A stretch of DNA of 64,000 nucleotides from assembly GCF_041415945.1 (NCBI RefSeq), contig NZ_JBGCUS010000001.1, positions 3,224,001-3,288,000 of the forward strand, in the 5' to 3' direction. Both the position numbers and the translations under genes were made by a program. The DNA is from Ancylobacter sp. IITR112 (lineage in GTDB: Bacteria; Pseudomonadota; Alphaproteobacteria; Rhizobiales; Xanthobacteraceae). The notes beneath the pieces are model-generated. The model made no database searches and was not told the DNA's origin. It saw only the letters and a program-made list of their open reading frames with translations. Position 1 is the stretch's first letter, and each line of letters starts with the position of its first letter. This document shows, piece after piece, positions 28,935-54,615 of this stretch.

Positions 28935-28951
28935 GCTTGCGCGAAGCTTGC
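28935..28951 (+). promoter_or_regulatory. FtcR-box candidate, cheY/cheZ control region
   Basis: GCTTGC-GCGAA-GCTTGC is a perfect direct repeat with an 11-bp period. It lies 82 bp upstream of the cheY start and 86 bp before the cheZ start, and it reads opposite to cheY. The same element occurs in the fliF, flagellin, motA/DUF1217 and flgE control regions. Confidence 0.68.
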
Positions 28952-28953
28952 AG

Positions 28954-28987
28954 AGCCAAACCTAGGGTTATTCTCAGAAGTTTGGCT
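28954..28987. promoter_or_regulatory. Inverted repeat upstream of cheZ
   Basis: AGCCAAAC and its exact complement GTTTGGCT are separated by 18 bases, 50 bp before the cheZ start and immediately next to the direct-repeat site. It could be a second regulator site or an RNA leader stem. The function is unknown. Confidence 0.4.
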
Positions 28988-29037
28988 TTGAACTATAAGA
29001 AAACATCGAACACTTGCGAGAGCATTGGAGATTATAC

Positions 29038-29760
29038 ATGTCGTCAGCGCGGCGGCCGTTCCGGATTGAAGCCAATGAACGACACCAGGGGACTGGTGAG
29101 AAGCAGACCACCGGCGCGGCGACGATGCAGGGTTCCGTCTCCGCCCAGATCGGCCGCGTGCTCGAAGAACTGCACGAGTTGCGCGGCGTGATCGCGCGCT
29201 TCGACCGCCGCTGCCCGGAGGCGGACCCCGAATGCTCCCGCCATGCCATGCTCATGGATGTGGAAACCATCCGCCAGGCGATCGACAACACCAAGAACGA
29301 ACTCGCCACGCTGCAGGCGGGCGGCGCCAAGGGCGCCCGCTTCAACCGTGCCACCGACGAGCTCGACGCTGTCGTCGCCGACACCGAGGCGGCGACCGAG
29401 GACATCCTGCAGATGGCCGAGAATATCGACGGCGCGGCGATCTCGCTGGTCGCCGAGCTGGAAGGCAGCCACAAGATGCTGGCGCAGGCGATCCACAGCT
29501 ACGCCACCCGCATCTTCGAGGCCTGCAATTTCCAGGACATTAGCGGCCAGCGCATCCGCAAGGTGGTCGACCTTATGGTGTTCATCGAGGAACGGGTCGA
29601 GCGCATGTCCAACATCTGGGGCGGGCAGGAAGAAGTGGCGCGTATCGCCGAAACCATCGCCCCCGAGCGCACCGGCGACGAGGCCCTGCTCAACGGGCCG
29701 GCGCTCGCCGACGACGCAAACGTCGTCTCGCAGGACGATATCGACTCGCTCTTCGCCTGA
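29038..29760 (+). CDS. cheZ: CheZ, CheY-P phosphatase
   Basis: This phosphatase ends the chemotaxis signal by removing phosphate from CheY. It has 240 residues and is mostly helical. The catalytic helix segment NFQDISGQRIRKVV contains D167 and Q171, equivalent to the conserved Asp and catalytic Gln of CheZ. The last residues VSQDDIDSLFA match the CheY-binding tail of CheZ. ATG 29038 has GGAG 7 bases upstream, so the longer frame is rejected. It converges with the lytic transglycosylase gene, with 2 bp between stops. CheZ is absent from several model rhizobia, which use a CheY phosphate sink instead. Confidence 0.92.
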   Translation: MSSARRPFRIEANERHQGTGEKQTTGAATMQGSVSAQIGRVLEELHELRGVIARFDRRCPEADPECSRHAMLMDVETIRQAIDNTKNELATLQAGGAKGARFNRATDELDAVVADTEAATEDILQMAENIDGAAISLVAELEGSHKMLAQAIHSYATRIFEACNFQDISGQRIRKVVDLMVFIEERVERMSNIWGGQEEVARIAETIAPERTGDEALLNGPALADDANVVSQDDIDSLFA

Positions 29761-29762
29761 GA

Positions 29763-30383
29763 TCAGGCGCAGAAGGCCCGCGACTGGGCGGTCCAGCTCC
29801 CGAAGCCGGACCGCACCAGATTGCGGATGACGGCGCAGACATAGCGTTTCTGCGCCGGATCATTGTTCGGCCCGGCATTGTAGCGGGCCGCCGCCATCGT
29901 CCAGTTGCCATGGCGCTGCCGCAGCTCTGCGAGAAAGCGGGCGGCATAGTCGACATTCCGCTCGGGATCGAACATCTCCGCTACCGAGCCGAACTGGTCG
30001 CCATGCCAGCGATGATTGATCTGCATGCAGCCGAGATCGACCAGCGTCACGCCCCGCGCGTTGAACTCCGCCAGCTTGCGCGCGCCATCGGCGACGCTGG
30101 TGGCGACGAGGCTCTTGCCCGCCGCATTCATCGCCAGAGGCTGAAGCGTTCCGCCGCCGCCGGTTTCGGTCATCCCCACCGCGTAGAGAATGGCCAGCGG
30201 CACGCCGTGCCTGGCCGAGGCGCGCGCCATCGCCGCCTCGCAGACGCCGAGCCGCGCACCCGCCGTCTGGGCGGCAGCCTTCGGGCCGGTAGCCTCCGGG
30301 GCCGCGCCGTTCGAAGCGGCGGCGAGGTCAGAGGCGCTGATCAGCAGCGCCGCCATCAGCAGCGCCAAATGCCGCTTCGTCAT
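29763..30383 (-). CDS. Lytic transglycosylase (SLT domain), motility-associated
   Basis: This periplasmic peptidoglycan lyase has 206 residues, with a signal peptide (1-23). The SLT fold has the catalytic glutamate E73 in AVGMTETGGGG, then DLGCMQINHRWHG and AARYNAGPN, all typical of the family. ATG 30383 has AAGGAG 8 bases upstream. It overlaps the 3' end of fliK by 56 bp in another frame. As the last gene of the fliF-motB-motC-fliK unit, it probably opens the peptidoglycan for the flagellar rod or stator. This replaces the muramidase domain missing from FlgJ further on. The role is inferred from context. Confidence 0.88.
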   Translation of the reverse strand: MTKRHLALLMAALLISASDLAAASNGAAPEATGPKAAAQTAGARLGVCEAAMARASARHGVPLAILYAVGMTETGGGGTLQPLAMNAAGKSLVATSVADGARKLAEFNARGVTLVDLGCMQINHRWHGDQFGSVAEMFDPERNVDYAARFLAELRQRHGNWTMAAARYNAGPNNDPAQKRYVCAVIRNLVRSGFGSWTAQSRAFCA

Positions 30384-32490
30384 CCTGTCGTCTCCTTCTG
30401 CGCGGATCGGAACCGCCCGGATTGCCGTCGCGGGATCCCTCCCCATCCCGGCGCTCCCATTCGGCGGGCGCAAAGCTGTCGTCACCGGTGAGCCGTGCCG
30501 GCTGGCCGGTCTGGCTGATGGTGAGGTCGAGCGGGCCAGCATCGGCCTCGGCCAGCGTGGCGAGAAGACCGGCGCGGTCCTGCTCCAGCAGCCGCGCCGT
30601 CTCCGCCCGCGCGGCATGAACATGGATCTCCAACCCGTTACGCCCGGTGCGCAGGCGCACCGTGACCAGGCCGAGTTCCAGCGGGCGCAACTGGATTTCC
30701 AGCACCCGCACCGGACCGCGCGCCGGCGCAACATCGCCGGCCATGCCCGCCGCCGGCGCACCCTGCGCCCGCACGGCTTCCGCGAGGGCGGCGCCGAGCT
30801 GTACGGCGGGGGACGGAGCGGCGCCCGGCAGCGACGGCGCCATGAGGGGAACCGCAGGTGCGGGCGTGGCGGGCGGGGCGATCGCGGTGTCGGCTGTCGC
30901 CGGCGCCGCCTCGCGGACCTCCATCCGCGCTCTCGCGGGTGCCGCCACCGGGAACGCAGCGCGGTCTCTAGGGAGGGGCGCCTCCTCGCTCGGCACCGCA
31001 CGCTCCGCCAGGTGCGGACGGGGCGGGACGGCCGGCGCCGCGCGCGGCGTCTCGCGCAGAGGCGGCAGGGGAGCGCCGAGAGTGACGGGAGCGTCGGGCG
31101 CCGCGCTCTGCATCGGGACCGCTGCCGCCTCGGTGCCCGCGTCGGTCCCCGGCCCGGCTGTCGCAACCGCCGGCGCAGCCGGCACCGGCGCCGCAGCGGC
31201 GCGGGCGGCAGAGGGCGGCGTGGGGCCCGCCGCCGCGACCTCCCGGTCAAGGACCGGCGCGAAATGCGTCTCGCACAGCACGACCTTGGCGGCGAGCGGC
31301 GTATCGTCAGCCACCGCGTCGTCCGGCATCGCCGCCAAAGCGAGAGGTGTTGCCGGGTGCTCCGCCTCTTCCGGAATGTCCGACGGCGCGGACATCGGGG
31401 CGGGGGGCGGCGTCAGCGGCGCCAGCAAGGCCGACGGCAGCGCGGCCGGCAGCGGTGCCGGCGTGCCGGGTGCCACCTCCGGTTCCGGCGCCGCCGGATC
31501 GGCCTTGTCGGTCTCATGAGATGTTTCGTGGCGGGGCCATGTCTGCACCACCGGGGGCGTCTGCACCACCGGGGGCGTCTGCACCACCGGGGGCGTCTGC
31601 ACCCCCGGCAGCGGCTCCGCCTGCATCGGTGTCTTGCCCGGAAGTCCCGAGGTCGCGGCAGCGGCGCCCTGGCTGGCCGACGCCGGCACGGAAGCGGCAG
31701 CCGGCGACCGGGGCGCCGCCCGCTCCGGCACCACCGGACCGGCCGGCATGGCACCCGCCCTGCCCGCGTCGACGGGAGGCTGTTCGGAGGCAGCCTGGTC
31801 CGGCGCGACAGACGCCGCCTCCCTGTTGTCAGTCGATGCCGGCCGCGCGGCGACGGGCGCGGGAGCCGCCGTCCCGGCGTCCGCGAGGGCGGCGCGCGCC
31901 GCTATCGGTAGCCCGGCGGTGGTGGGGCGGGAGGTTGGCGCGGCAACCGGCATCGGCCCGGCCGGCATGTCCGGGCCGTCACCGGCCGGGTGAACCGCCG
32001 CCGTGTGCGCGGGCCGCGCCTCGCCCTCCGGCATCGCCGCCGCGAGCCTGGTCGGCACGGGCGTCAGGGCCGTCGTCGGCGCCGGCAACGGCGACGGAAC
32101 GGGGGCGGGCGAACGGGCGGCCACCGGCGCCGTCTCCGCCGCCGGGCGCAGCGAGCGGGCGAGCAGGGCGTCAAGGTCCAGCGCGCCCGGCGCCTGTTCC
32201 GGTTCGGCGGCGGCATGGGTCACGGCCGGCATCGCTTCGTCGGCCGGCGGCGCCTCCGTCGGGGCCGGTCCCGCCGGCACGGTGAGGGGACGCGCCGGAC
32301 CGGCTTCCGGGGCCTCGGCGGTGCCGGCTGTGCCGGCGGAAGGCGGGATGCCCTCTGCGGGCGGCCGGCCGTCCAGCTCGGCGAGAAGGGCGGTGAACGC
32401 CGCGCCGTCGCCGCCGCGTTCGGAACGGCCAGGCAATTCCTCGCCGGCGCCGAGGGGGGAGCGGGAGGCGTTGAGGGGAAAAGGGATCAT
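30328..32490 (-). CDS. fliK: FliK, flagellar hook-length control protein (rhizobial MotD)
   Basis: This secreted molecular ruler switches the export gate from hook to filament substrates. It has 720 residues, very long for the family. About the first 590 residues are Pro/Ala-rich and low in complexity, including a tandem PPVVQT repeat. The C-terminal hook-length domain has VLEIQLRPLELGLVTVRLR and IHVHAARAETARLL, the conserved FliK_C region, followed by a short basic tail. Its start overlaps the motC stop by 4 bp (ATGA). In Sinorhizobium the equivalent gene was first called motD and lies in the same place after motC. Confidence 0.88.
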   Translation of the reverse strand: MIPFPLNASRSPLGAGEELPGRSERGGDGAAFTALLAELDGRPPAEGIPPSAGTAGTAEAPEAGPARPLTVPAGPAPTEAPPADEAMPAVTHAAAEPEQAPGALDLDALLARSLRPAAETAPVAARSPAPVPSPLPAPTTALTPVPTRLAAAMPEGEARPAHTAAVHPAGDGPDMPAGPMPVAAPTSRPTTAGLPIAARAALADAGTAAPAPVAARPASTDNREAASVAPDQAASEQPPVDAGRAGAMPAGPVVPERAAPRSPAAASVPASASQGAAAATSGLPGKTPMQAEPLPGVQTPPVVQTPPVVQTPPVVQTWPRHETSHETDKADPAAPEPEVAPGTPAPLPAALPSALLAPLTPPPAPMSAPSDIPEEAEHPATPLALAAMPDDAVADDTPLAAKVVLCETHFAPVLDREVAAAGPTPPSAARAAAAPVPAAPAVATAGPGTDAGTEAAAVPMQSAAPDAPVTLGAPLPPLRETPRAAPAVPPRPHLAERAVPSEEAPLPRDRAAFPVAAPARARMEVREAAPATADTAIAPPATPAPAVPLMAPSLPGAAPSPAVQLGAALAEAVRAQGAPAAGMAGDVAPARGPVRVLEIQLRPLELGLVTVRLRTGRNGLEIHVHAARAETARLLEQDRAGLLATLAEADAGPLDLTISQTGQPARLTGDDSFAPAEWERRDGEGSRDGNPGGSDPRRRRRQDDEAAFGAADGGAADQRL
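31541..31608 (+). repeat. 18-bp tandem repeat inside fliK
   Basis: There are three perfect 18-bp copies (31541-31558, 31559-31576, 31577-31594) plus a partial fourth copy to about 31608. They encode a repeated six-residue unit of the type PPVVQT in FliK. Slippage would alter ruler length without a frameshift. Confidence 0.9.
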
Positions 32491-34565
32491 AGCGGCGCCT
32501 CTCCCAGCGCTTTGTCGGCGGCGTCAAGCGCGGCGCGGGCGGTGGCGAGAATGGCGGGGGGAGGCGCGTCCTTGCCGCCCTGACCCACAGCCGGGGGCGC
32601 GGCGGCGTCGGCATCGGGCGACTCGGCATCGGGCGGCGCGGCATCGGGGGGCGCGGCCGCTTCTTCCGGCGGTACATTGACGGCATCGTCGATCGAGGTG
32701 GCGACCGCCTCCGCCGCCCCCAGCAGCCGCGCATCCTCGCTGCCGAAACGCTCGCGGGCGACGCTTGCGAGTTCCGCCCGCGCCTCGTCGAAGCGGCCGG
32801 GCGTGGCCACCGTCGCCGCGGCGCGGTAGAGCGTGGCGCGGTCGGCTTCCAGGCTGCCGATCACCGCGCCCTTGAGCACCAGTTCGGCCGCCAGCGACGC
32901 CGCCGTGGTCTTGCCCTGCGCCAGCGCCGCCTGCGCGATCAGCAGCGCGACTTGCCGGCGGCTCTCCGGTTCGAGCGGGGCCAGCAGGGCGTGGACATGG
33001 TGAAAATCCTCGGCACTGTCGATGAAGCTCATCCGTGTCAGCGCGGCGGCGAAACGCTGGCGGAAATTGCCGGCATAGACGGAATGACGGTAGCGGGCGA
33101 GATAGGTCGCGGTGAGCCGCTCGAACGTGTCGAGTTCGTTGGCCTGAGCGGCGATGAAGATCTCGCGGCGCAGTGCCGCCTCCTCCACCAGCGTGCCCGG
33201 CGCCATCAGCCGCGCACGCCCCAGCAGCACCGCCGCCCGGGCGGGATCGCGGCGCACCCACAGCGCCGCCTGCGCCAATGCCACCTGGCCGGCGAGGCTG
33301 TCGGGCAGGTCGCGCGCCTCGATTTCGCCGAGCTGCTTCAGTGCCTCCGGTTCACGGCCTTCGAGATAGGCCAGCGTGCCGCGCAGCAGCCTTTCGTCGA
33401 TGGCGGGCGTGGCGCCCTTGCCGAGCACCGCGCGCAGCCCGCCCGGCCCGCCGCCGCTCAGCGCGAAGATGATCAGCGCCCGGGCATTTTGCGGGTCGTT
33501 CCAGGCCGAGGCATCGGCGGCGCGGAACGCGGCGTCGATCCGGGCGATCAGCGCATTCTGCGCCGCCAGGGCATCGGGCTCGCCGGTCGCCATCCGGTCC
33601 TGCAGCCGCTGGAGGTCGCGCACATCGCGAAAGAGCGGCGGCGCCGGCGGGGCGGCGGGCTCGCTCGCAGCAGCCGGCTCGTCCTTGGCGGCGCCCCCCG
33701 GCGCGCTCACCTCCGAGGCCTGCGCCGAGGAGAATACCGCCGGCAGACGCAGCAGGCCGGGCGCTTCGGGGATGGCTTCCGCGAGGAGCGGCTCGGTCGC
33801 CTCGGCCGAAGGCTCGTCACCAGCATCTGTGGAGCCGGCGGTCTGCGCCGGTTCGGCAGCGACCGACGGCTCGGCGATGTCGGAGGACGCGACCTTCCCG
33901 GTTGCCTCTGCAACGGCCGATGCCGGCGCCGCGCGCACGGGCGCGGGCGCCGCGCCCAGCGCCGGTGGCGCCGCGCGCATGGAAGCCGGCAGGGCCGGCC
34001 CTTCCGTCGCGGCGGCGCCGGCAAAGACGTTGGCGGCGAAGCTCTCCGGCACGAAGGCGAGCGCGAAGCTCGCCCGCGTGAAACTCTCGCCGGCCAGATT
34101 TTCCGGCGCGAATTGATCCGGCGCGAAGGCGGGCGGGGCGAGATGCACCGGCAGCGGCGCCTCCGGCGCGGCTTCCGGGGGGGCGGCCGGCATCGGCCCG
34201 GCGGCGGCGGGACTGACTGGCGCCGCAGAAACGGGCGCGGCAACGGGTGCAGGGGCGGCTGCCGGCACGGCGAGCGCGGAAGCCGCCAGTGCCGCGCCGG
34301 GGGCGAGCGGCCGGGCCGGCGGCAGCGGCACCCGCACGGTCGTCACCCGCACCACGGGCGGAGGTGCCGGGCGCGACGGCGGCAGCGGCACCGCCATGGC
34401 ACCGGGTGCGACGGCGGGCGAAGCCCCGGGCACCGTGTCGGGAATCGCCGCCGCCGAGGCGTCGGCGTCGACGCCGCGCACCTCGTCCCACGGATCGCCC
34501 GCCGCCATGTGGGGCGCAAGCAGAAGGACGGCCAGAAACGTAGCCGGCAACATGATACGATTCAT
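32487..34565 (-). CDS. motC: MotC, periplasmic motility protein
   Basis: This rhizobial motor protein binds the periplasmic part of MotB and is needed for stator function. It has 692 residues, about 250 more than the ~430 of Sinorhizobium MotC. A signal peptide (1-22) is followed by a Pro/Ala/Val-rich segment to about residue 310. That segment contains two VPLPPxRP copies and a run with Phe or Leu every fifth residue (147-181). The conserved MotC core starts near RDVRDLQRLQDRM and includes DERLLRGTLAYLEGREPEAL and VYAGNFRQRFAAAL. It overlaps motB and fliK by 4 bp each. Confidence 0.88.
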   Translation of the reverse strand: MNRIMLPATFLAVLLLAPHMAAGDPWDEVRGVDADASAAAIPDTVPGASPAVAPGAMAVPLPPSRPAPPPVVRVTTVRVPLPPARPLAPGAALAASALAVPAAAPAPVAAPVSAAPVSPAAAGPMPAAPPEAAPEAPLPVHLAPPAFAPDQFAPENLAGESFTRASFALAFVPESFAANVFAGAAATEGPALPASMRAAPPALGAAPAPVRAAPASAVAEATGKVASSDIAEPSVAAEPAQTAGSTDAGDEPSAEATEPLLAEAIPEAPGLLRLPAVFSSAQASEVSAPGGAAKDEPAAASEPAAPPAPPLFRDVRDLQRLQDRMATGEPDALAAQNALIARIDAAFRAADASAWNDPQNARALIIFALSGGGPGGLRAVLGKGATPAIDERLLRGTLAYLEGREPEALKQLGEIEARDLPDSLAGQVALAQAALWVRRDPARAAVLLGRARLMAPGTLVEEAALRREIFIAAQANELDTFERLTATYLARYRHSVYAGNFRQRFAAALTRMSFIDSAEDFHHVHALLAPLEPESRRQVALLIAQAALAQGKTTAASLAAELVLKGAVIGSLEADRATLYRAAATVATPGRFDEARAELASVARERFGSEDARLLGAAEAVATSIDDAVNVPPEEAAAPPDAAPPDAESPDADAAAPPAVGQGGKDAPPPAILATARAALDAADKALGEAPL

Positions 34566-35815: not shown

Positions 35816-35821
35816 GGCTGA

Positions 35822-38139: not shown

Positions 38140-38242
38140 CTGCTCTCCCGCTCCCTAGATGATGCGACGGGCCCATGGCGCGGGCCGCGCGGGCCCCGCC
38201 TCCAAGCAGGGCCGTTCCGTCGAGGGGAGAGTGCGTCGGCGA

Positions 38243-38259
38243 GCTTGCCTGAGCGTTGC
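38243..38259 (+). promoter_or_regulatory. FtcR-box candidate upstream of fliF
   Basis: GCTTGC-CTGAG-CGTTGC matches the direct-repeat element (11-bp period between TTGC cores). It lies 103 bp upstream of the fliF start and reads opposite to fliF. Confidence 0.58.
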
Positions 38260-38272
38260 GCGCGGCGGCGCG

Positions 38273-38370: not shown

Positions 38371-39624
38371 TCAACCGCGGAACAGGCTGAGCACGCTCTG
38401 CGAGCTGGAATTGGCGATGCCGAGCGACTGAACGGCGAGCTGCTGCTGGGTCTGCAGCGCCTTCAGGCGGGTCGACTCTTCTTCCATGTTCGCATCGACG
38501 AGCGAGCCGATGGCGCGGTTGTTGGCGTCCTGCAACGCCTGGACGAAGTTGGTCTGCGACTCGATACGGCTGGCCGTGGAGCCGAGGCTCGTGGACGCAT
38601 CCGTAAGGTCGGTCAGGGCGGCATCGACGATCGAGGTGTAGTTCGCGATCTGGTCGAGGTCGCTCTGGCTCGAAGTCAGCTTGGAAATGTCGATATCCAT
38701 GATCGAGCTGACCGTCGCCTTGCCGTTCGACGTGGCGGCCACGCGGGACTTGTCGAGGATACCGAGGTCATCGGTGCCCGAGGAAGCCAGCGAGTTCTTC
38801 AGCGCGAGAACCGCGCCGTCGAGAGCCGTTTTCTTCGTCGTTTCGGCAGTGGTGTAGGCACCATCGCGGGTGTTCTTGGCCGTCGCATAGGCGGTGTCAC
38901 GGGCGGCAACAGCCGCGGCGTCCATGGCGCTGCCGGCGAAGGTCGTGTCGGCCGTCGAGATGGCGGTATCGTAGGCGGTATCCGCCGTGGTCTTGGCGGT
39001 GTCGTAGGCAGTGGCGGCCGTGGTGGCGGCGGTGGAGTAGGTCGCCGACGCCGTGGTCACGGCGGAGTCGACCGCGGAGTGGACGGTGGTGTTCGAATCC
39101 AGCAGCTTGAACTTGCTGGTGTCGATGTTGATCGTGTCCACCTGCACCGTGTCGCCGGTGCGGGAGAACGAGGCAACCACCGCCTTGTTGGCATTGTAGT
39201 TGGCTTCGCTCGAGTCGACCGACAGCCAGTTGCTGCCGGAAATGACCGTGCTCTTGGCGTTGTTCTTCACCTCTTCGAGCAGGCTGCCGATTTCGGTCTG
39301 CAGCTTGGCGCGATCGGCGTCCGGGGACGCGGCGGTGATGAGCTTTTCCTTCACCTTCTGCAGCGCGTTGCGCACGGTATCGAGACCGGTGTTGACGGTA
39401 TCGACCGAGGACTTGGCGAGGCCGAGCGAGTCCTTCACCGCGCCGAGCGCACCGTTGTCGGAGCGGGTCGTGGTGGCGATGGACCAGTAGGCGGCGTTGT
39501 CCGAGGCGGAGTTGACGCGCAGGCCGGTGGAGACGCGGTTGTTCGTCTCGTCGAGCGAAGAGTTGATGGTCCGCAGGGTCTGCAGGGCGACCATGGAGGA
39601 CGTGTTGGTCATCAGGCTGGTCAT
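38371..39624 (-). CDS. Flagellin
   Basis: This is the filament subunit, of 417 residues, and the only flagellin in the window. The conserved N-terminal domain (1-140; ALQTLRTINSSLDETNNRVS, GLRVNSASDNAAYWSIA) and C-terminal domain (about 310-417; RIESQTNFVQALQDANNRAI, ending SVLSLFRG) are typical of rhizobial flagellins. The middle carries seven 11-residue repeats (about 184-272) with Tyr or another large residue at fixed spacing, an unusual insert. AGGG precedes ATG 39624. Expression is probably post-transcriptionally controlled by FlbT and FlaF, which are encoded downstream in the window. Confidence 0.96.
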   Translation of the reverse strand: MTSLMTNTSSMVALQTLRTINSSLDETNNRVSTGLRVNSASDNAAYWSIATTTRSDNGALGAVKDSLGLAKSSVDTVNTGLDTVRNALQKVKEKLITAASPDADRAKLQTEIGSLLEEVKNNAKSTVISGSNWLSVDSSEANYNANKAVVASFSRTGDTVQVDTINIDTSKFKLLDSNTTVHSAVDSAVTTASATYSTAATTAATAYDTAKTTADTAYDTAISTADTTFAGSAMDAAAVAARDTAYATAKNTRDGAYTTAETTKKTALDGAVLALKNSLASSGTDDLGILDKSRVAATSNGKATVSSIMDIDISKLTSSQSDLDQIANYTSIVDAALTDLTDASTSLGSTASRIESQTNFVQALQDANNRAIGSLVDANMEEESTRLKALQTQQQLAVQSLGIANSSSQSVLSLFRG

Positions 39625-39774
39625 AGGAATGTCCCTTGAGTTGATGTGAGTTTTTCACGGGACATACCGGGCTTACACCGGCATGGCAGAGGCGGCATCA
39701 TGCCTTTGACGATCGGGCTCGGGAGCGCGATCCGAGAGCCGGCCCTGAACGGACCGGCCATCAATCTGCCATGG

Positions 39775-39810
39775 CGCCACCCTCGCACGGCAAGCTTGCG
39801 CGGGGCTTGC
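39775..39810 (-). promoter_or_regulatory. FtcR-box candidate and extended element upstream of flagellin
   Basis: GCTTGC-GCGGG-GCTTGC (39794-39810, plus strand) is a perfect direct repeat with an 11-bp period. In the gene direction the 36-bp segment starting here is identical at 32 positions to the segment at 51670-51705 before the DUF1217 gene. It lies 169 bp upstream of the flagellin start, leaving room for a long leader. Confidence 0.7.
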
Positions 39811-44470: not shown

Positions 44471-44485
44471 GGAAGCCGTCCTTCT

Positions 44486-46485: not shown

Positions 46486-46547
46486 GGCGGTCTCCGCATT
46501 CCTACGCGCGGACCGTAGGACCAGAACCTTGCACGAGGCTGGAGCCC

Positions 46548-47006: not shown

Positions 47007-48069
47007 TCTGGCCTCGCGAGTAGATGAAGAAGAGAATCTTGGCGACCGGACGGTAGAACTCCGCCGGAATCCACTGGTCGACCTCCACCGCCTCATAGAG
47101 CGCCCGCGCCAGCGCGCGGTCCTCCACGACGGGCACGCCGGAACTCTCGGCGATGGAGCGTATCTTCAGGGCGATCAGGTCCGCCCCCTTGGCGAGCACC
47201 AGCGGCGCCCCACCCTTCACCCGGTCATAATGCAGCGCGATGGCGTAGTGGGTCGGGTTGGCGATGACCAGCGAGGCACGCGGCACGGCGCTCATCATGC
47301 GGTGGCGGGCGCGTTCCTTGGCCAGCGAGCGCAGCCGCGCCTTGACCAGCGGGTCGCCCTCGGCCTGCTTGAACTCCTCCTTCACCTCCTGCTTGGTCAT
47401 GCGCAGCTCGGCGCGCCAGCTCAGCCGCGACCAGACGAGGTCGATGCACACCAGCGCGATGGTCGCCACGCACACCGCCGAGACCAGCCGCACGGCGAGG
47501 CCGAGCAGCATGGAGGGAACGAGCGTCGGGTCGCTCGACATCGCGCCCATGATGCTGTCCTTCGCCGACAGCAAGAGCATGACGCAGATCGCCGAGACGG
47601 CACCGAACTTGAACAGCGATTTCAGGAACTCGACCTGCCCGTGCCGGCCGAAGATGCGGGTGAAGCCCGAGGCCGGCGACACGCGCGACCATTGCGGGCG
47701 GATGCGCTCGCCGACGAAGCGCGGCATGTTCTGCGCCAGCGAGGCGACGAGGCCGAAGGCGGCGAGAACGAGCACGACCGGCAGCAGGAAGCGCGCGGCC
47801 AGCCCGAAAGCCAGCCAGAACAGGTCGATTGCGTCCTCGCCGCTGGCGATGCGGAAGCCGCCGGGATTGTCGATCAGCCGCGTCAGCCCCTGGGTGAGCA
47901 GCGCCGTCTGCGGGCCGGCGAAAAACGACAGGCTGACGAGTATGCCCAGCAGCGAGGCGAAGAGCGGCGCCTCGCGCGAGAACGGCACCTTGCCCTTCTC
48001 CAGCGCGTCGGCGATCTTCTTCTCGCTCGCTTCCTCGGTTTTGCTCTCCTTGTCATTATCCTCGGACAT
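46993..48069 (-). CDS. flhB: FlhB, export gate and specificity-switch protein
   Basis: This membrane protein controls the order of export and has 358 residues. It has a charged cytoplasmic N-terminus (TEEASEKKIADALEKGKVPF), four membrane helices and a C-terminal cytoplasmic domain. The self-cleavage motif NPTH is at 271-274. EEFKQAEGDPLVKARLRSLA is the conserved linker. Cleavage at Asn271 allows the switch from rod/hook to filament export, together with FliK. Confidence 0.96.
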   Translation of the reverse strand: MSEDNDKESKTEEASEKKIADALEKGKVPFSREAPLFASLLGILVSLSFFAGPQTALLTQGLTRLIDNPGGFRIASGEDAIDLFWLAFGLAARFLLPVVLVLAAFGLVASLAQNMPRFVGERIRPQWSRVSPASGFTRIFGRHGQVEFLKSLFKFGAVSAICVMLLLSAKDSIMGAMSSDPTLVPSMLLGLAVRLVSAVCVATIALVCIDLVWSRLSWRAELRMTKQEVKEEFKQAEGDPLVKARLRSLAKERARHRMMSAVPRASLVIANPTHYAIALHYDRVKGGAPLVLAKGADLIALKIRSIAESSGVPVVEDRALARALYEAVEVDQWIPAEFYRPVAKILFFIYSRGQNARK

Positions 48070-48092
48070 GGCGGCCCCCGGGGTGGCCTGAC

Positions 48093-49115
48093 CTAGCGCA
48101 CATAGGCTTCGTCCTCGCCGCCGGCATTGAGCTCGATCTCGCCGCGTCCCGCCATTTCCAGCGCCATGTCGGTGATGGCGCGCCGCGCCTCGTGCACGTC
48201 GCGGTGCGAGGCCGGCTCGCTGCTCATCAGCTCCTGCTCGACCATGCGCCGCACGCGCGAGCCGAGCGACTGCAGGATGACCTCGCGGAACTGGGCATCG
48301 GTGCCCTTCAGCGCCATCACCGTGCGGTCGTTCGGCACCTGGTCGAACAGCGCCGTGCGGGCGCGGGGCGGCAGGTTGATGATGTCGTCGAAGGTGAACA
48401 GCAGCCCCTTGAGGATTTCCGCCGACTTCGGCCGCGTGGTGGCGAGGCTGGAAAGCACGTTCTCCATGTCGTCGCGCTCCATCTTGTTGATGATGTCGGC
48501 GATGCGGGCATGGGTGTCGGCGCCCGCATTGCGGGCGAGGTTCACCATGAAGTCCTCATGGATGGTGTTCTCGATGATCCGCATCGTTTCGTCGACGATC
48601 GGCTTGAAGCCGAGCATGCGGCGCATCACGGCGTTGCGCATCGCCTCCGGCAGATGGCCGAGCACCTTGGCGGCGCAGGACGGCTTGACCCGCGAGAGGA
48701 TCAGCGCCGCGATCTGCGGATGTTCCTTGATCACATAGGCGGCGATGGTGCCCTCCGAGACCCCGGAGATGCGGTCCCAGATGCTGTGATTGGTCGAGCC
48801 GAGAATGTCGGTCATGATGGCGGAGATCTGCTCGGGAGGCAGAACCCCGTCGAGCAGGCGCTCGACATCGCTGGGCGAGCCGACAACATTGGCCCCGGCG
48901 ACGAACTGGGTGGCGAATTCCTCGATAGCGAGTTCGACCTGCGCGGTCGACACCGGGCGCATCTCCGCGATGGCGCGGGTGATCGCCTTGATCTCTTCCG
49001 GCTGGAAATGCTTCATCAGCCGCGCCGCCACCGGCCGGCCCATGGTCATGAGCAGCGCGGCGACGCGGTCGGACCCCTGCAGCGGGCGGGCCACTCTGGC
49101 GGTTACGGCGGACAT
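48093..49115 (-). CDS. fliG: FliG, flagellar motor switch protein
   Basis: This C-ring protein contacts the stator and has 340 residues. The N-terminal domain binds FliF (SDRVAALLMTMGRPVAARL). The middle domain has the EHPQ motif (KEHPQIAALILSRVKP). The C-terminal domain carries the charged torque helix (FTFDDIINLPPRARTALFDQ). It lies between fliN and flhB in the motA unit. Confidence 0.96.
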   Translation of the reverse strand: MSAVTARVARPLQGSDRVAALLMTMGRPVAARLMKHFQPEEIKAITRAIAEMRPVSTAQVELAIEEFATQFVAGANVVGSPSDVERLLDGVLPPEQISAIMTDILGSTNHSIWDRISGVSEGTIAAYVIKEHPQIAALILSRVKPSCAAKVLGHLPEAMRNAVMRRMLGFKPIVDETMRIIENTIHEDFMVNLARNAGADTHARIADIINKMERDDMENVLSSLATTRPKSAEILKGLLFTFDDIINLPPRARTALFDQVPNDRTVMALKGTDAQFREVILQSLGSRVRRMVEQELMSSEPASHRDVHEARRAITDMALEMAGRGEIELNAGGEDEAYVR

Positions 49116-49130
49116 GCGCCTTCAACCGCG

Positions 49131-49463
49131 TCAGCGCGAGATTTCGGCGCCGGACGTGCCGACGATCTCGGTCAGCGACACGCCGAAGCGGGAATTGTCC
49201 TCGTCCACCACAACCACTTCGCCACGGGCGATGATGCGGCCATTGACGACGATGTCGACCGGCTCGCCGACGCGGCGGTCGAGCGGCACGATGGCGCCGC
49301 GCCCGAGCTTCATCAGTTGCGCCACCGGCAGATTGGCCGAGCCGAGAACGACCTGCAGCGTGACCGGCACCCGCAGCAGCGATTCGAGGCCGCGGCCGCC
49401 GAAGCTTTCCTCAACCGTGCCCGTGCTGGCGAGCACTTCCGGAGAGAAGGTTTCGTGGCTCAT
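49131..49463 (-). CDS. fliN: FliN, flagellar motor switch protein
   Basis: This C-ring subunit has 110 residues. The SpoA domain is clear: VPVTLQVVLGSANLPVAQLM, LGRGAIVPLDRRVGEPVDI and ARGEVVVVDEDNSRFGVSLT. It overlaps the upstream small gene by 4 bp. The N-terminal extension is short, as in many alphaproteobacteria. Confidence 0.95.
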   Translation of the reverse strand: MSHETFSPEVLASTGTVEESFGGRGLESLLRVPVTLQVVLGSANLPVAQLMKLGRGAIVPLDRRVGEPVDIVVNGRIIARGEVVVVDEDNSRFGVSLTEIVGTSGAEISR

Positions 49464-49777
49464 CCGCGCAGATCCTTGTTCACGGGGGTCGGAAGAATGG
49501 CCGCGGCCTCGGCGCGGGCGCGGTCGAGCCGGGCGACCAGCGCCTCCGCCTCGCCGATGCGCACGCAGAGCGCGGCGATGAGCTCGCGGCTGTCGTCATT
49601 GAGCAGGGCGACGGCATCGCGCGCCTCGCCGAGCGCGGCGGCGCTGTCATGCAGCGCCAGCCGGTAGTGGCGCCCAACGGTCGAGAGCTCGTTGAGCTTG
49701 CGATACATCAGCACCACGCAGCCGCTCGTCACCACGAGCGCCACGAACAGCACCGCCTCAGCGGGGGAGAATGTCAT
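49460..49777 (-). CDS. Small single-pass membrane protein with coiled coil, between fliM and fliN
   Basis: This protein has 105 residues. Residues 6-25 form one membrane helix (AEAVLFVALVVTSGCVVLMY), followed by about 70 residues of Ala/Leu/Glu-rich helix likely to form a coiled coil. It starts at ATG 49777, inside fliM (20-bp overlap), and overlaps fliN by 4 bp, so it is tied to C-ring synthesis. I do not recognise a characterised family. By topology it could be an accessory to the switch complex or stator, which is inference. Confidence 0.72.
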   Translation of the reverse strand: MTFSPAEAVLFVALVVTSGCVVLMYRKLNELSTVGRHYRLALHDSAAALGEARDAVALLNDDSRELIAALCVRIGEAEALVARLDRARAEAAAILPTPVNKDLRG

Positions 49778-50702
49778 CAATGAACTCCTGATCGAGATCG
49801 ACCGCCTCTTCGATACGCAGCACATAAGACCCGTCAGCTTGCCCGAGGCTGCACCAGAACAGCGGCTGCTCGACGCTCTCCAGCTTGACGCGGCTGCGCG
49901 GCGTCGCCTGCAGCGGCAATATCTGCCCGACTTCCAGCTGCGCGGCGTCGCCGAGGGTGATCTCGCGCTCTTCCAGCACCGCGCGCAGCCGCACCTCGGT
50001 GCGCTGCACCTCGCCGCGAATGTGCTTGGTCCAGATCGGGTCGCGCGGCGATGATTCGCCGGCCGTGGTGCTGGCGAGCTGCTGGCGCAGCGGGGTGAGC
50101 GCGCCCTGCGGGATCAGCACGAACATCTCGCCGCCGCGATTGAGCGCCTGCAGCAGGAATTTGGCGCAGATGGCGAGGTTGTTGCGCCGCCCCACCACCG
50201 CGAAGTCCATGCGGGTTTCCTGCCGCTGGAACTTGAAGCTGACCTGGCTCACCAGCGCGAAGCTGCCCTGCAGCGCCTTGGCCATCTGCTCGAACAGGGC
50301 GATGGCGATGCGCAGCTCGATATTGGAGAAGGAGCGCTCGTCATCCACCGGCGGCTCGGAGCCGTCGGCGCCGAACAGCACCTCCACCATGCTGAACACG
50401 AAATCGCGGTCGAAGCCGACAATGACGTGGCTGTCCCATTCGGGCGAGTGGAACACGCCGACGATCGCCATGCCTTCATAGGTGTCGAGCACGTCGCCGA
50501 TGCGCCCGCTCTCCACCTGGCTCAGCGAGTAATAGGCCTGCGAGGAGGCGAGCTGGCGCAGGCTTTCCGCGCACAGCGTCGCCATCCGGTCGAAGATGAC
50601 GTGCAGCATCGGCAGCTTGTCGAGCGAAAGCCCGGCGGCGTCGAGCAGCAGGTCGCGAATGTCGGCCGGCGTGCCGGCGGAGGGGGTGGCGCGCATGTTC
50701 AT
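49758..50702 (-). CDS. fliM: FliM, flagellar motor switch protein
   Basis: This C-ring protein transmits the CheY signal and has 314 residues. The CheC-like middle domain has SYSLSQVESGRIGD-type and FVFSMVEVLFGADG segments, and NIELRIAIALFEQMAKALQG is conserved. The C-terminal SpoA domain is present (LRAVLEEREITLGDAAQLEV). The usual N-terminal CheY-binding motif LSQxEIDALL is not visible; instead the N-terminus reads TPADIRDLLLDAAG. It follows motA by 4 bp. Confidence 0.92.
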   Translation of the reverse strand: MNMRATPSAGTPADIRDLLLDAAGLSLDKLPMLHVIFDRMATLCAESLRQLASSQAYYSLSQVESGRIGDVLDTYEGMAIVGVFHSPEWDSHVIVGFDRDFVFSMVEVLFGADGSEPPVDDERSFSNIELRIAIALFEQMAKALQGSFALVSQVSFKFQRQETRMDFAVVGRRNNLAICAKFLLQALNRGGEMFVLIPQGALTPLRQQLASTTAGESSPRDPIWTKHIRGEVQRTEVRLRAVLEEREITLGDAAQLEVGQILPLQATPRSRVKLESVEQPLFWCSLGQADGSYVLRIEEAVDLDQEFIDDILPR

Positions 50703-50706
50703 TCGA

Positions 50707-51591
50707 TCAGGCTGCCTGTGCCACGGCCGAAAGGTTGGGCACGTTGGAGATGGCTTCCGCCTCGACCTCGTCGATGGTCGGCCGCTCGGAGGAGGAGATG
50801 GTCTTGCGCCCGTGTTCGAGCGCGATCTGCGGCAGCGCGCCGTTCATGTAGGCGATCAGCGACTGCTTCACGATGATGAAGGGCTGGACCTGCTTCTCGC
50901 GCATGATCTTGATGTAATGCGCCATCGGCCCGAGGATCGCGTAGGAGGTGTAGATGCCGATGAGGGTGCCGACGAGCGCCGAGGCGATGTAGTGGCCGAG
51001 GATTTCCGGCGACTGGTCGATGGCGCCCATCGCCTTGACGATGCCGAGCACCGCCGCGCAGATGCCGATCGCCGGCATGCCTTCGGCCACCGTGCTCAGC
51101 GCCCCGGCCGGCTTGGTCTTGTATTTCTTGATGGTCGAGATTTCCTGTTCCATCAGCCCCTCGATCTCGTGCGAGCGGGCATTGCCGATGACGATGAGCC
51201 GCGCATAGTCGCAGATGAACTGCGTCAGCTCCTTGTCCTTCAGAATGTTCGGGAAGTGCTGGAACAGCGCGGAATTGGCGGGGTCGTCGATGTGACCTTC
51301 GACCTCGTTGCGCGGGCGGGTGCGCAATTCGCGCATCAGCGCATAGAGCAGGCCGAGCAGGCCGAGGAAATCCTTGCGCTTGGGCGCCTTGCCGGAAAAG
51401 GCCTGGCCCAGCGCCTTGCCGGTGTCCTTGACCGTCGACATCGGGTTGGCGATGAGGAAGGTGGCGAAGGCGATGCCGAAAATGATGACATATTCAAAGG
51501 GTTGCCAGATCACTTCGAGATGGCCGCCCATGGCGACGAAGCCACCTCCGATGGAGGCGAACCCCAGGACAATGCCGATCAGAATGAACAA
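50707..51591 (-). CDS. motA: MotA, flagellar stator ion channel
   Basis: This stator protein with four membrane helices has 294 residues. It starts at TTG 51591, chosen because the family N-terminus (FILIGIVLGFASIGGGF) begins there and GGAGGGG lies upstream. No ATG fits. The cytoplasmic loop has NARSHEIEGLMEQEI, and helices 3-4 contain the conserved prolines (GMPAIGICAAVLGIVKAMG, SYAILGPMA). It is the first gene of the 12-kb unit ending with fliP. A direct-repeat site lies 41 bp upstream, and the gene is divergent from DUF1217. Confidence 0.93.
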   Translation of the reverse strand: MFILIGIVLGFASIGGGFVAMGGHLEVIWQPFEYVIIFGIAFATFLIANPMSTVKDTGKALGQAFSGKAPKRKDFLGLLGLLYALMRELRTRPRNEVEGHIDDPANSALFQHFPNILKDKELTQFICDYARLIVIGNARSHEIEGLMEQEISTIKKYKTKPAGALSTVAEGMPAIGICAAVLGIVKAMGAIDQSPEILGHYIASALVGTLIGIYTSYAILGPMAHYIKIMREKQVQPFIIVKQSLIAYMNGALPQIALEHGRKTISSSERPTIDEVEAEAISNVPNLSAVAQAA

Positions 51592-51632
51592 TGCCGACCC
51601 CTCCGTTGTTGGTTGAGGGTCTAGGCAAGCAA

Positions 51633-51705
51633 GATTGCGCGAGGCTGGCCCTTTCCAGCCGGACGGCACGGAAGCCCGGCGCAAGCTTGCCGCGCCAGGG
51701 TGGCG
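51633..51705. promoter_or_regulatory. Two oppositely oriented FtcR-box candidates between motA and DUF1217
   Basis: Site A (51633-51649, plus strand) is GATTGC-GCGAG-GCTGGC, 41 bp from the motA start. Site B (51670-51686, minus strand) is GCTTGC-GCCGG-GCTTCC, 43 bp from the DUF1217 start. Each reads opposite to the gene it would serve. The segment 51670-51705 matches the flagellin element at 32 of 36 positions. Confidence 0.7.
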
Positions 51706-51729
51706 GCCGGACCGGAGCCGGGAACCGCC

Positions 51730-52494
51730 ATGACCACCACCTTCGCGACCTTTCAGTCGCTCACGCGCAACATGACCCGCACGCTGGCGCTGAAGGCCGC
51801 CGAGCCCTCGGTGGCGCTGGAGACGAAGTACTTTCTCGCGAACATCCCGAAGATCAAGACGATCGACGCCTTCCTCAAGAATACCCGCGTCTTCAACTAT
51901 GCGATGAACGCCTTCGGCCTCGGCGACATGGCCTATGCCAAGGGCTATATGCGCAAGGTGCTGACCGAAGGCATCGTCGAGCCGAAATCCTTCGCCAACC
52001 GTCTCAATGACGAGCGCTTCACCGCCTTCGCCAAGGCGTTCAATTTCGAGAGCTACGGCCCGCTGACCACCTCCCGCCCGGCGGCGCAGAAGGACGTGGT
52101 CGACGCCTATATCCGCCAGACGCTGGAAGTGGACGCCGGCGCGGAGAATGAAGGCGTGCGCCTCGCGCTCTATTTCCAGCGCGAGGCGCCGAAGGTGAAA
52201 TCGGCCTATGGGCTGCTCGCCGATCCGGCGCTGTGGAAGGTGCTGAAGACGGTCTACGGCTTTCCCACCGCCATGGCCTCGGCCGATATCGAGAAGCAGG
52301 CCTCGGCCGTCACCCAGCGGCTGAAGCTCGCCGACCTGCAGGACCCGACCAAGCTCGACCGGCTGATCCGCCGCTTCACCGCGCGCTGGGACGCCGACCA
52401 GGGCGTCGCCTCGCCGACCCTCGCGCTGTTTCGCACCAGCGGGGTCGGGACGGGCACCGGCATGGCGCTGCTGAACCTCAAATATGGAGGCTGA
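51730..52494 (+). CDS. DUF1217 family flagellar-cluster protein
   Basis: This protein has 254 residues, and the DUF1217 region makes up nearly all of it. Conserved parts are the helical TIDAFLKNTRVFNYAMNAFG and YGPLTTSRPAAQ segments and the C-terminal LDRLIRRFTARWDADQG. There is no signal peptide or membrane helix. It is the first gene of the DUF1217-flgF-fliI unit and is known from other rhizobial flagellar clusters, where its exact role is not established. Helical content and position suggest a rod, chaperone or basal-body role, which is inference. Confidence 0.85.
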   Translation: MTTTFATFQSLTRNMTRTLALKAAEPSVALETKYFLANIPKIKTIDAFLKNTRVFNYAMNAFGLGDMAYAKGYMRKVLTEGIVEPKSFANRLNDERFTAFAKAFNFESYGPLTTSRPAAQKDVVDAYIRQTLEVDAGAENEGVRLALYFQREAPKVKSAYGLLADPALWKVLKTVYGFPTAMASADIEKQASAVTQRLKLADLQDPTKLDRLIRRFTARWDADQGVASPTLALFRTSGVGTGTGMALLNLKYGG

Positions 52495-52497
52495 CGA

Positions 52498-53214
52498 ATG
52501 CCGAGCCTTTACGTCCCGCTGGCGGCGCAGGTCGCCACCGAGCGACGCATGGCGACCATCGCCAACAACATCGCCAATATGAGCACGCCCGGTTTCCGGG
52601 CGGAGGAGATCAAGTTCGAAAATCTCCTCTCCACCGTCGGCAAGGACGAGGTCGCTTTCGTCTCCGAGGGCGAGAGCTACACCTCACTGGTCGCTGGCCC
52701 GGCCATCTATACCGGCAATCCGCTGGATGTCGCCGTGCAGGGCGATAGCTGGTTCGCGGTGCAGACGCCGGCGGGGCGCGCCTATACGCGCGACGGGCGC
52801 CTGCACATCGCCCCGACAGGCGAGGTGCTCACCGTCGATAACCTGCCCGTGCTCGATTCCGGCGGCACCGCGCTGCTCATCGACCCCGCCGGCGGCGAGA
52901 TCAAGATCGGCGCCGATGGCGCGCTGACCCAGGGCGCGAACCGGGTCGGCACGCTCGGCCTGTTCACCCTGCCCGCCGGCGCGAAGCTGACGCGCCAGGG
53001 CAATGCGGTGATCCCCGACCAGGCCGCCCAGCCGGTGCAGGACTTTTCCATCTTCGGCGTACGCCAGGGCTATATCGAGGGCGCGAATGTCGATCCGATC
53101 ATGGAAATGACCCGGCTCATCGCCGTGCAGCGCACCTTCGAGATGGCGGCGCAGGCGGTGCAGCAGAGCGAGGACCAGACCTCGGAAACCATCCGCACGC
53201 TGGGGCCGTCCTGA
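52498..53214 (+). CDS. flgF: FlgF, proximal rod protein
   Basis: This rod subunit has 238 residues. The N-terminal signature is ATIANNIANMSTPGFRAEEI, the middle has LDVAVQGDSWFAVQTPAG, and the C-terminus has GYIEGANVDPIMEMTRLIAV. SD GGAGG lies before ATG 52498. It lies 1 bp before fliI. Confidence 0.95.
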   Translation: MPSLYVPLAAQVATERRMATIANNIANMSTPGFRAEEIKFENLLSTVGKDEVAFVSEGESYTSLVAGPAIYTGNPLDVAVQGDSWFAVQTPAGRAYTRDGRLHIAPTGEVLTVDNLPVLDSGGTALLIDPAGGEIKIGADGALTQGANRVGTLGLFTLPAGAKLTRQGNAVIPDQAAQPVQDFSIFGVRQGYIEGANVDPIMEMTRLIAVQRTFEMAAQAVQQSEDQTSETIRTLGPS

Positions 53215-53215
53215 G

Positions 53216-54538
53216 ATGAACACGCTGGCACGGCTGGAAGCGGCGGTTCAATCGGGCCTCGACGATCTGCCCTTCGTGCGCGTCTCCGGCGTGGTGCGCG
53301 AGGTGACGCCGACGCATTTCCGCGTGTCGGGCCTGTCCTCGCATCTCACGCTCGGCGCCTGCGTCGCGGTGGAGGGGGGCGGGCGCAACCTGATTGGCGA
53401 GGTGGTGCGGCTCGATGAGGGCGGCGCCACGGTGAAGCCGTTCGACGAGCGGATCGCCATCGGCCTCGGCGCGCCGGCGCATCTCGCCCGCGACCTCGCC
53501 TTCCGCCCGCATGAGGAATGGAAGGGCCGGGTGATCGGCGCGCTCGGCCAGCCGCTGGACGGGCTCGGCCCGCTCCCCCTCGGCGATGAGGCGCGCGCGC
53601 TCGAAGCCGACCCGCCGGAGGCGATGAGCCGGGCGCGCATCCACAAGCCGCTGCGCACCGGCGTGCGGGTGATCGACCTGTTCACCCCGCTCTGCGAGGG
53701 CCAGCGCATCGGCATCTTCGCCGGCTCGGGCGTCGGCAAGTCGACCCTGCTCGCCATGCTCGCCCGCTGCGAGGGCTTCGACACCATCGTCGTCGCGCTG
53801 GTCGGCGAGCGCGGGCGCGAGGTGCGCGAATTTCTCGAAGGCCCGCTGGCGCCCAACCGCCACCGCTCGGTCGTGGTGGTCGCCACCAGCGACGAGAGCG
53901 CGATGATGCGCCGCCTCGCGCCGCGCGCCGGCTTCGCGGTGGCGGAATATTTCCGCGACCGTGGTGAGCAGGTGCTGCTGATCATCGACAGCGTCACCCG
54001 CTACGCCCATGCCGCGCGCGATGTGGCGCTGGCGGCGGGCGAGCCGGCGGTGGCGCGCGGCTACGCGCCGAGCGTGTTCAGCACCCTGCCCCGCCTGCTG
54101 GAACGCGCCGGCCCCGGCCCGGAGGGCGCGGGGGCGATCTCCGCCATCTTCTCGGTGCTGGTGGATGGCGACGACCATAATGACCCGGTGGCCGACGCGG
54201 TGCGCGGCACGCTGGACGGCCATATCGTGCTCGACCGGGCGATCGGTGACCAGGGCCGCTTTCCCGCCGTGAACGTGCTGCGCTCGGTCTCGCGCCTCGC
54301 CGATCTCGTCTGGAGCCCGGAGGAGCGCGACCTGATCCGCCGCCTGCGCAGCCTCATCGCCCGCTTCGAGGACACGCGCGACCTCAGGCTGATGGGCGGC
54401 TACCACCCCGGCGCCGACCCCGAGCTCGACCAGGCGGTGAAGGTGGTGCCGCGCATCTATGAGGCGCTGTCGCAATATGCCGACGCCCCGCCGAGCCGCG
54501 AACCCTTCGCCGAACTCGCCCAAGCCATACGCGGCTAG
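53216..54538 (+). CDS. fliI: FliI, flagellar export ATPase
   Basis: This ATPase of the type III export apparatus has 440 residues. Walker A is GSGVGKST (170-177), Walker B-type strand is VLLIIDSVTRYAHA, and the signature PSVFSTLPRLLERAG is the F1/FliI-type motif. It forms a hexamer in the cytoplasm with FliH. The gene ends in a 14-bp tandem repeat that covers its stop codon. Confidence 0.96.
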   Translation: MNTLARLEAAVQSGLDDLPFVRVSGVVREVTPTHFRVSGLSSHLTLGACVAVEGGGRNLIGEVVRLDEGGATVKPFDERIAIGLGAPAHLARDLAFRPHEEWKGRVIGALGQPLDGLGPLPLGDEARALEADPPEAMSRARIHKPLRTGVRVIDLFTPLCEGQRIGIFAGSGVGKSTLLAMLARCEGFDTIVVALVGERGREVREFLEGPLAPNRHRSVVVVATSDESAMMRRLAPRAGFAVAEYFRDRGEQVLLIIDSVTRYAHAARDVALAAGEPAVARGYAPSVFSTLPRLLERAGPGPEGAGAISAIFSVLVDGDDHNDPVADAVRGTLDGHIVLDRAIGDQGRFPAVNVLRSVSRLADLVWSPEERDLIRRLRSLIARFEDTRDLRLMGGYHPGADPELDQAVKVVPRIYEALSQYADAPPSREPFAELAQAIRG

Positions 54539-54564
54539 CCATACGCGGCCAGCGATACGCCGCC
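54523..54564 (+). repeat. 14-bp tandem repeat across the fliI stop codon
   Basis: There are three copies of an AGCCATACGCGGC(T/C) unit (54523-54536, 54537-54550, 54551-54564, the last with two changes). The first contains the last codons and the first base of the stop. A second tandem pair, 16 bp each (54574-54605), follows in the same gap. Confidence 0.85.
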
Positions 54565-54598
54565 GCGCCAAAGACCGCCCACGCCTAGCACCGCCCAC

Positions 54599-54615
54599 GC
54601 CAGTCTCGCACAAGC
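54599..54615 (-). promoter_or_regulatory. FtcR-box candidate upstream of flgE
   Basis: On the minus strand this reads GCTTGT-GCGAG-ACTGGC. It is the weakest match of the family on its own but agrees with motA site A at 14 of 17 positions. It lies 42 bp before the flgE start and reads opposite to flgE, as at the other sites. Confidence 0.5.

Follow-up and report, generated by a model that had tools for sequence, protein, structure and literature searches.

Which signal switches on the flagellar genes of Ancylobacter sp. IITR112, and which protein reads it? The window analysed here, a stretch of 64 kb (coordinates below are those of the window unless a genome handle is given), carries a cluster of flagellar and chemotaxis genes together with ftcR, which encodes a regulator with an OmpR-type DNA-binding domain. 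An initial annotation reported six copies of a direct repeat, GCTTGC-N5-GCTTGC, in motility control regions and proposed FtcR as its binder. We found that this 17-base signal is real and has a fixed place before most flagellar operons, in this soil bacterium and in many relatives. Judged by comparative analysis, it is very probably the DNA box of FtcR (Rem/LafR/ActR family), standing where a -35 element would otherwise be.

The flagella of many Hyphomicrobiales are under the control of FtcR/Rem/LafR. The literature covered, whose sources were available in part, names a single binding site for it, an 8-mer that does not resemble the sites of OmpR-family proteins. A box defined base by base, with a fixed spacing to the -10 element, makes the regulon readable from sequence and the published motif directly testable.

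A direct repeat of one polarity before motility genes

The cluster encodes proteins with Pfam domains of CheY, CheZ, FliK, MotB, FliF, flagellin, FliP, FliL, FlgH, FlgI, FlgA, FlgG, FliE, FlgC and FlhB, as well as FliG, FliN, FliM, MotA, DUF1217, FlgF, FliI, FlgE, FlgK, FlaF, FlbT, FlgD, FlhA and a rod-binding protein. An Rfam search returned no match. All six reported copies of the repeat lie where the initial annotation had placed them, with the mismatches and the distances to the start codons that it had given: two are perfect and the others differ at one to three half-site positions (Table 1). They share one polarity; that they read opposite to the gene, as was also said, is a mere choice of naming, since the gene strand reads GCAAGC-N5-GCAAGC. 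The list itself was incomplete, with three further boxes overlooked, before flgB, the rod-binding gene and a chemoreceptor gene.

Table 1. Boxes and related features of the window (mismatches are half-site positions differing from GCTTGC-N5-GCTTGC; R1 and R2 are the genome scans described in the text)
Feature	Position	Strand	-10-like hexamer	Mismatches	Distance to start codon	Further evidence
ftcR, proposed binder	27542..28216	(-)				OmpR-type DNA-binding domain, Trans_reg_C 2.6e-13 (Pfam)
cheY box	28935..28951	(-)	CAGAAC 28920-28925	0	82 bp	retained in nine relatives
fliF box	38243..38259	(-)	CACTCT 38228-38233	2	103 bp	retained in nine relatives and before fliF in other families
flagellin box	39794..39810	(-)	GAGGGT 39779-39784	0	169 bp	nine relatives; predicted transcription start 39772; top own-genome match, R1 and R2
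flagellin mRNA 5' leader (predicted)	39625..39772	(-)				starts at the predicted start; first block in all ten genomes
motA box (start TTG 51591)	51633..51649	(-)	TAGACC 51618-51623	2	41 bp	nine relatives; 18/18 in other genera
DUF1217 box	51670..51686	(+)	CAGGGT 51696-51701	1	43 bp	nine relatives, variant form in three
flgE box	54599..54615	(+)	TCAACT 54625-54630	3	42 bp	nine relatives; fifth own-genome match, R2
flgB box (start GTG 46485)	46527..46543	(-)	TACGGT 46512-46517			9/9 relatives, at 41-43 bp; fourth own-genome match, R2
rod-binding (flgJ-like) gene box (start 63320)	63259..63275	(+)	GAGGCT 63285-63290			9/9 relatives, at 43-45 bp; sixth own-genome match, R2; rod-binding domain
probable chemoreceptor-gene box (gene 19745-21241)	21289..21305	(-)	TAGCAA 21274-21279			MCPsignal domain

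In its loose form the pattern is at chance in the window and proves nothing alone, and we dropped such counts as evidence. With up to three mismatches there are 131 matches against 149.6 expected, and with up to two, 16 against 17.8 in shuffles. With at most one mismatch we counted 6 matches (shuffle mean 1.55, largest 3), and the two perfect copies compare with none in 20 shuffles. The six promoters jointly carry 8 mismatches, whereas the lowest of 2,000 shuffles carries 18. Taken singly, the fliF (P = 0.024), motA (P = 0.029) and DUF1217 (P = 0.003) promoters stand out from their shuffles; the flgE copy by itself is not significant (P = 0.22). In the whole genome, the strict pattern occurs 43 times against 29 for a reversed control, a mild enrichment; these counts were superseded by the trained models described below.

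The element is constant in relatives while its flanks diverge

FtcR orthologues (E < 1e-100) were found in 10 of 24 congeners, and the cluster was taken from nine of them, the contig of the tenth having ended. In upstream alignments with these nine relatives, the element is constant at all six promoters whereas the flanks diverge. On the gene strand it reads approximately GC(A/C)AGCCTCGCGCAAGC, and the genus alignments give the consensus GC(A/C)AGC(C/T)(T/C)C(G/A)CGCAAGC, in which the promoter-proximal (second) half-site is the more constant. The half-sites first described were retained, and the free N5 spacer gave way to a constrained one (about CTCGC). A direct repeat with a period of about 11 bp and fixed polarity is what an activator box of the OmpR/PhoB type looks like. 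The DUF1217 site of one relative (G014), TCCAGCCCGGCGCAAGG, was misplaced by the aligner and was excluded from the matrix. The resulting 17-mer matrix is built on one genus, and scoring the six sites of the window with it is circular.

The box accompanies the FtcR-linked flagellar system in other families

We applied this genus-only matrix to 71 of 80 FtcR loci, excluding the nine nearest (L084-L092), with a threshold of at least 12 bits within 300 bp upstream. Sites were found before motA (18/18), fliF (17/23), flhA (7/7) and cheY (6/34), all of them in gene orientation, and the 6/11 before cheZ are sites viewed from the other side. None was found before flhB (23), fliG (23), motB (19), flgC (12), fliP (12) or fliE (9), nor before flgG, flgI, fliL, flgD and flgF (7 each), flbT (6) or flaF (3); flhB, fliG, motB and flgC are operon-internal genes, and the box is found before genes that open an operon. 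Column-permuted matrices gave on average at most 0.53 matches per gene, a single permutation reaching up to 8.

An FtcR orthologue (E < 1e-50) was present in 54 of 199 genomes sampled across the order. We then compared FliF in 80 chosen genomes, 52 with FtcR and 28 without. FliF of a first group (E < 1e-108) occurs in 46/52 FtcR genomes and in 0/28 FtcR-less ones; a second group (E 2e-77 to 7e-63) occurs in 21/28 FtcR-less genomes and in 10/52 FtcR genomes, nine times as a second system. Among the 52, no FliF was found in five, and one has the second group only. With the fragment G222:C167 excluded, the best upstream 17-mer reaches at least 12 bits at 24/46 FtcR-linked fliF genes, all in gene orientation, against 1/31 of the other type, where the site has the wrong orientation. 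The corresponding figures for permuted matrices are 0.73 (maximum 6) and 0.4 (maximum 3). With a 32-bp profile that includes the -10 element, the tested family always being held out of its building, 33/46 FtcR-linked fliF promoters outscore every one of the 31 controls. Each of these 33 sites is in gene orientation, and 20 permuted profiles placed on average 0.4, and at most 5, above the best control. The locus set and the genome set overlap, several loci being the same contigs.

Two genomes of the window's own family (G058, G155) have both FliF types, and there the box stands before the FtcR-linked fliF only. This fits the report that LafR acts on only one of two flagellar systems, the lateral and not the polar one. 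Among the fliF promoters missed, those of one genus, g58 (five genomes), have a weak look-alike only, those of another, g31 (three genomes), have a variant, and in four g60 genomes and G025 we saw no convincing site. A look-alike that may be a variant box, approximately GCAAG-N7-ACAGG, was noted upstream of fliF in five genomes of one genus (L176, L177, L178, L181, L183), together with a -10-like hexamer 94-107 bp ahead of the gene.

The box probably occupies the place of a -35 element

When 129 sites, picked on the 17 bp alone, were stacked and weighted, an A appeared at position 28, counted from the start of the box, in 93% of them, together with T18 (60%), T19 (71%), A30 (59%) and T32 (42%). 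Positions 28, 30 and 32 correspond to -11, -9 and -7 in the -10 consensus of sigma70. The box end lies 10 bp ahead of the key A of this -10-like hexamer; flgE is an exception, with its A at position 29, one base later than elsewhere. Transcription would then start at position 39, 22 bp past the box, which would span -38 to -22. The leaders predicted in this way measure 20-23 nt for flgB, motA, DUF1217, flgE and the rod-binding gene, and would account for the box-to-start distances of 41-43 bp. In this layout the element would cover the -35 region, with a constant spacing to a sigma70-type -10, as in an activator box of the OmpR/PhoB type. The PhoB box, too, is a direct repeat standing in for the -35 element, some 10 bp ahead of the -10; its sequence is different, and it needs phosphorylation.

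Motility promoters lead the genome-wide ranking

Trained models were scanned across whole genomes in two ways, each scoring 150 of about 1,900-3,600 first-look candidates per genome. R1 was trained on 38 sites, none from the own genome, although three of the four FtcR genomes scanned had contributed; R2 was trained on 63 sites, with the own genome and three others held out. In R1, motility promoters of the window take the top four ranks among 15 own-genome matches and six of the top nine. In R2, the best seven of 23 own matches (27.5 to 16.6 bits) are, in this order, those of flagellin, DUF1217, motA, flgB, flgE, the rod-binding gene and cheY. The score of fliF is only 12.7 bits, which several non-motility places exceed. 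FtcR genomes gave 13-22 matches in R1, against 2-6 in three FtcR-less congeners, and 21-26 in R2, against 5-14 in six FtcR-less congeners (best 16.3 bits); these congeners are defined by lacking FtcR and may or may not have flagella.

Scans of the kind proposed at the outset placed motility promoters at the top of the own genome and matched FtcR-linked fliF promoters in other families. As for the objection that the motif might be equally common elsewhere, the trained models rank motility promoters first, the loose pattern is at chance, and some non-motility matches do occur. We inspected 18 out-of-cluster R1 matches of FtcR genomes, a part of the total, and 5/13 of FtcR-less genomes; the strongest of ten intergenic ones precedes a phosphoenolpyruvate carboxylase gene (G001). 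The eighth own R2 match (3088842) has no motility gene seen nearby. The specificity of the box model is not perfect.

FtcR as the probable reader of the box

The name FtcR was given from the domain make-up of the protein, its place beside cheY/cheZ as described for ActR, and its orthologues; in an NCBIfam search no FtcR model passed the cut-off. In its receiver domain a Glu replaces the phospho-acceptor Asp, and the acidic pair and the Lys are retained (position judged by eye); relatives have Gln, Arg and once Asp at this place. The C-terminal helix is strongly conserved in 21 sequences, as would suit a half-site that is nearly constant. We also looked for co-variation between the box and the recognition helix; it was uninformative, since the helix shows hardly any variation.

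We propose that two FtcR subunits would bind head to tail, to half-sites 11 bp apart, in the -35 place. FtcR with its Glu receiver would recruit the housekeeping RNA polymerase there, by which most flagellar and some chemotaxis operons would be switched on. The assignment of the box to FtcR, as first suggested, is the best-supported reading by comparison of geometry, FtcR-linked flagellar type and genome-scan rank. In published work available to us in part, FtcR-family regulators were needed for flagella in relatives (ActR, LafR), and these genetics agree with it.

Several observations weigh against this assignment. Because FtcR is encoded in the very cluster that it is proposed to control, co-occurrence by itself does not point to it in particular. 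The ftcR gene itself is without a box (a match in 1/71 loci and in 1/21 sequences, both on the wrong strand), and ftcR autoregulation was reported in Brucella, in the part of that study consulted (PMC9456535). The locus scan gave 0/12 for flagellin and 0/7 for flgE in other genera, and 13/46 FtcR-linked fliF promoters fail to exceed the best control. Among the ten intergenic out-of-cluster R1 matches inspected, 7 are not beside motility genes and 3 precede chemoreceptor-type genes. In addition, the motif drawn from Brucella FtcR by chromatin immunoprecipitation sequencing, TGTGGGCA, is according to the same partial source a repeat-free 8-mer present in 118/363 peaks, and is unlike the box (PMC9456535), although it is claimed for an orthologous regulator and fliF is a target there too. 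The best match of TGTGGGCA in each of our nine promoter regions has 2-3 mismatches, and at up to one mismatch it occurs 27 times in the window against 48.7 expected. Either TGTGGGCA is not the main specificity, or the Brucella FtcR has diverged.

The co-occurrence of FtcR with FtcR-linked FliF (46/52 against 0/28) would be matched by any cluster-bound regulator, and another such protein might bind the box, with FtcR acting through it or not at all. We consider this unlikely. The only other DNA-binding regulator found beside ftcR, the response regulator at 26572-27477, has an orthologue in 9/25 genomes examined and is missing from 16, which rules it out as a general binder; VisNR was reported absent from Azorhizobium and B. 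diazoefficiens, in the portion of the source available (PMC8429497); and the polar 11-bp direct repeat suits an OmpR-type dimer, while the window holds no full CtrA site. The initial annotation had also allowed that the box might be a core promoter element of an unusual sigma factor. The part that holds is that the box replaces the -35 element within the core promoter, at a fixed distance from the -10 and the predicted start, and on the opposite strand a sigma54-like match (2 mismatches) does overlap the boxes of cheY and flagellin. That such a factor reads it is nevertheless very improbable: the box, at about -38 to -22, is followed by a sigma70-type -10, and sigma54-like matches with up to 2 mismatches number 3 against 10.8 expected, and the two that lie on boxes lack the GG. 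The arrangement of a sigma54 promoter (GG at -24, GC at -12) was not found. A sigma search of the own genome gave no FliA over cut-off, and hence none of the factor that a sigma28 promoter calls for, but three weaker sigma70-family matches and one region-3 sigma; ECF (extracytoplasmic function) and sigma54 factors were outside this search.

Chance repeats in GC-rich DNA would fit two observations, the chance-level number of matches with up to three mismatches in the window and the no more than mild enrichment of the strict pattern genome-wide. Chance is refuted by the conservation and by the matches in held-out families, and the shuffles and the R2 ranking also speak against it, so that its probability is negligible.

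Autoregulation of ftcR through the box is unsupported, as its upstream region is box-free. The ftcR promoter (28217-28468) has a conserved stretch of its own, about GAAGCAACTC-GCTTGAGTGGATATATTT; together with the missing box, this implies that something else should switch ftcR on.

Comparison with known systems

In the sources consulted in part, the box of HP1043 (HsrA) of Helicobacter pylori shares the hexamer-5-hexamer arrangement with centres 11 bp apart (PMC5253667). HP1043 is an OmpR-family orphan regulator with a non-phosphorylatable receiver, whose hexamers TTTAAG stand 5 bp apart; its box differs by AT-rich half-sites, by a conserved first repeat (the second here) and by a non-flagellar regulon (PMC5253667). 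The full CtrA site, TTAA-N7-TTAA, is likewise read by an OmpR-family protein, with an 11-bp period and a position near -35 when activating, and CtrA controls flagella in some alphaproteobacteria (PMC6180460). Its half-site differs from that of the candidate FtcR box, and the window contains no TTAA-N7-TTAA. In S. meliloti, a CtrA-type motif precedes rem, yet CtrA was not found bound there, as far as the consulted text goes.

Rem (Sinorhizobium), LafR (Bradyrhizobium) and ActR (Azorhizobium) are orthologous or homologous activators of flagellar genes. According to the partly available accounts, Rem is an aspartate-less regulator that needs no phosphorylation for its activity and is inhibited by MirA. 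They give no box sequence for Rem, LafR or ActR, the founding papers being outside the literature consulted. Our search of the literature likewise met no comparable box; it lacked the founding Rem (2006), Brucella FtcR (2007) and 2017 LafR papers, and we do not claim that the box is unpublished. In mechanism it is most likely of a usual kind, with an OmpR-family protein binding over the -35 region; its identity is new within the literature covered.

A possible one-tier regulon and the flagellin leader

The same box and layout precede genes expected early (motA, fliF, flgB, flgE) and late (flagellin, cheY, chemoreceptor). We tentatively suggest, at slightly less than even odds, that Ancylobacter may have a one-tier regulon, in which this box and layout would directly drive both sets, with no FliA and no second transcriptional class. 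If so, assembly would be ordered by post-transcriptional control; the conserved leader of the flagellin mRNA partly pairs its ribosome-binding site.

A leader block shared by all ten genomes begins exactly at the predicted flagellin start, 39772, which is an independent check on the prediction. The leader region (39613-39772, minus strand) folds into hairpins conserved in the ten genomes. Its first bases pair with an invariant block further on, and part of the ribosome-binding site is paired as well (UGUCCC with GGGACA, 10/10 genomes). Covariation support is thin, most pairs being invariant. The leader is a possible target of FlbT/FlaF control.

Further copies, look-alikes and neighbouring features

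The chemoreceptor-gene box is a probable copy and the most weakly supported one. Orthologues of the gene in seven loci each have an upstream site, with the A at position 28 in all. Against this copy speak its overlap with the upstream kinase gene, at the 3' end of that gene, and its absence from the own-genome matches of both R1 and R2. A second chemoreceptor gene of the own genome (MCPsignal 2.3e-31), outside the window, has a candidate site at G000:C1:3919793 in which the A at position 28 is missing, and a similar HAMP-domain gene of G013 also has a candidate site. A third chemoreceptor type has a site in G018, G009 and G002 (MCPsignal examined in G018 only).

Three look-alikes were excluded as coding sequence. 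The box-like stretch at 49837-49853 (minus strand), found in nine relatives, lies at the 3' end of the fliM coding sequence and 11 bp ahead of the start that follows; the others are at 23226 and 58072.

Beside ftcR, the region 24325-27477 (plus strand) encodes a histidine kinase, a lone receiver and the response regulator mentioned above, which has a MarR-like domain and could feed signals into motility. Two genomes, both from one family, have another and more distant copy of FtcR beside the MarR-like regulator (G104:C1:2871716-2872381, G068:C1:968632-969297). Three genomes of one genus have one in-frame TGA in fliF (G053:C12:785317-786921, G151:C1:2790481-2792085, G197:C32:6270-7874). Between flbT and flgD of the window lies a palindromic intergenic repeat (59205-59274), absent from nine relatives, with further copies of 63-70 bp and 90-100% identity at five other places of the genome.

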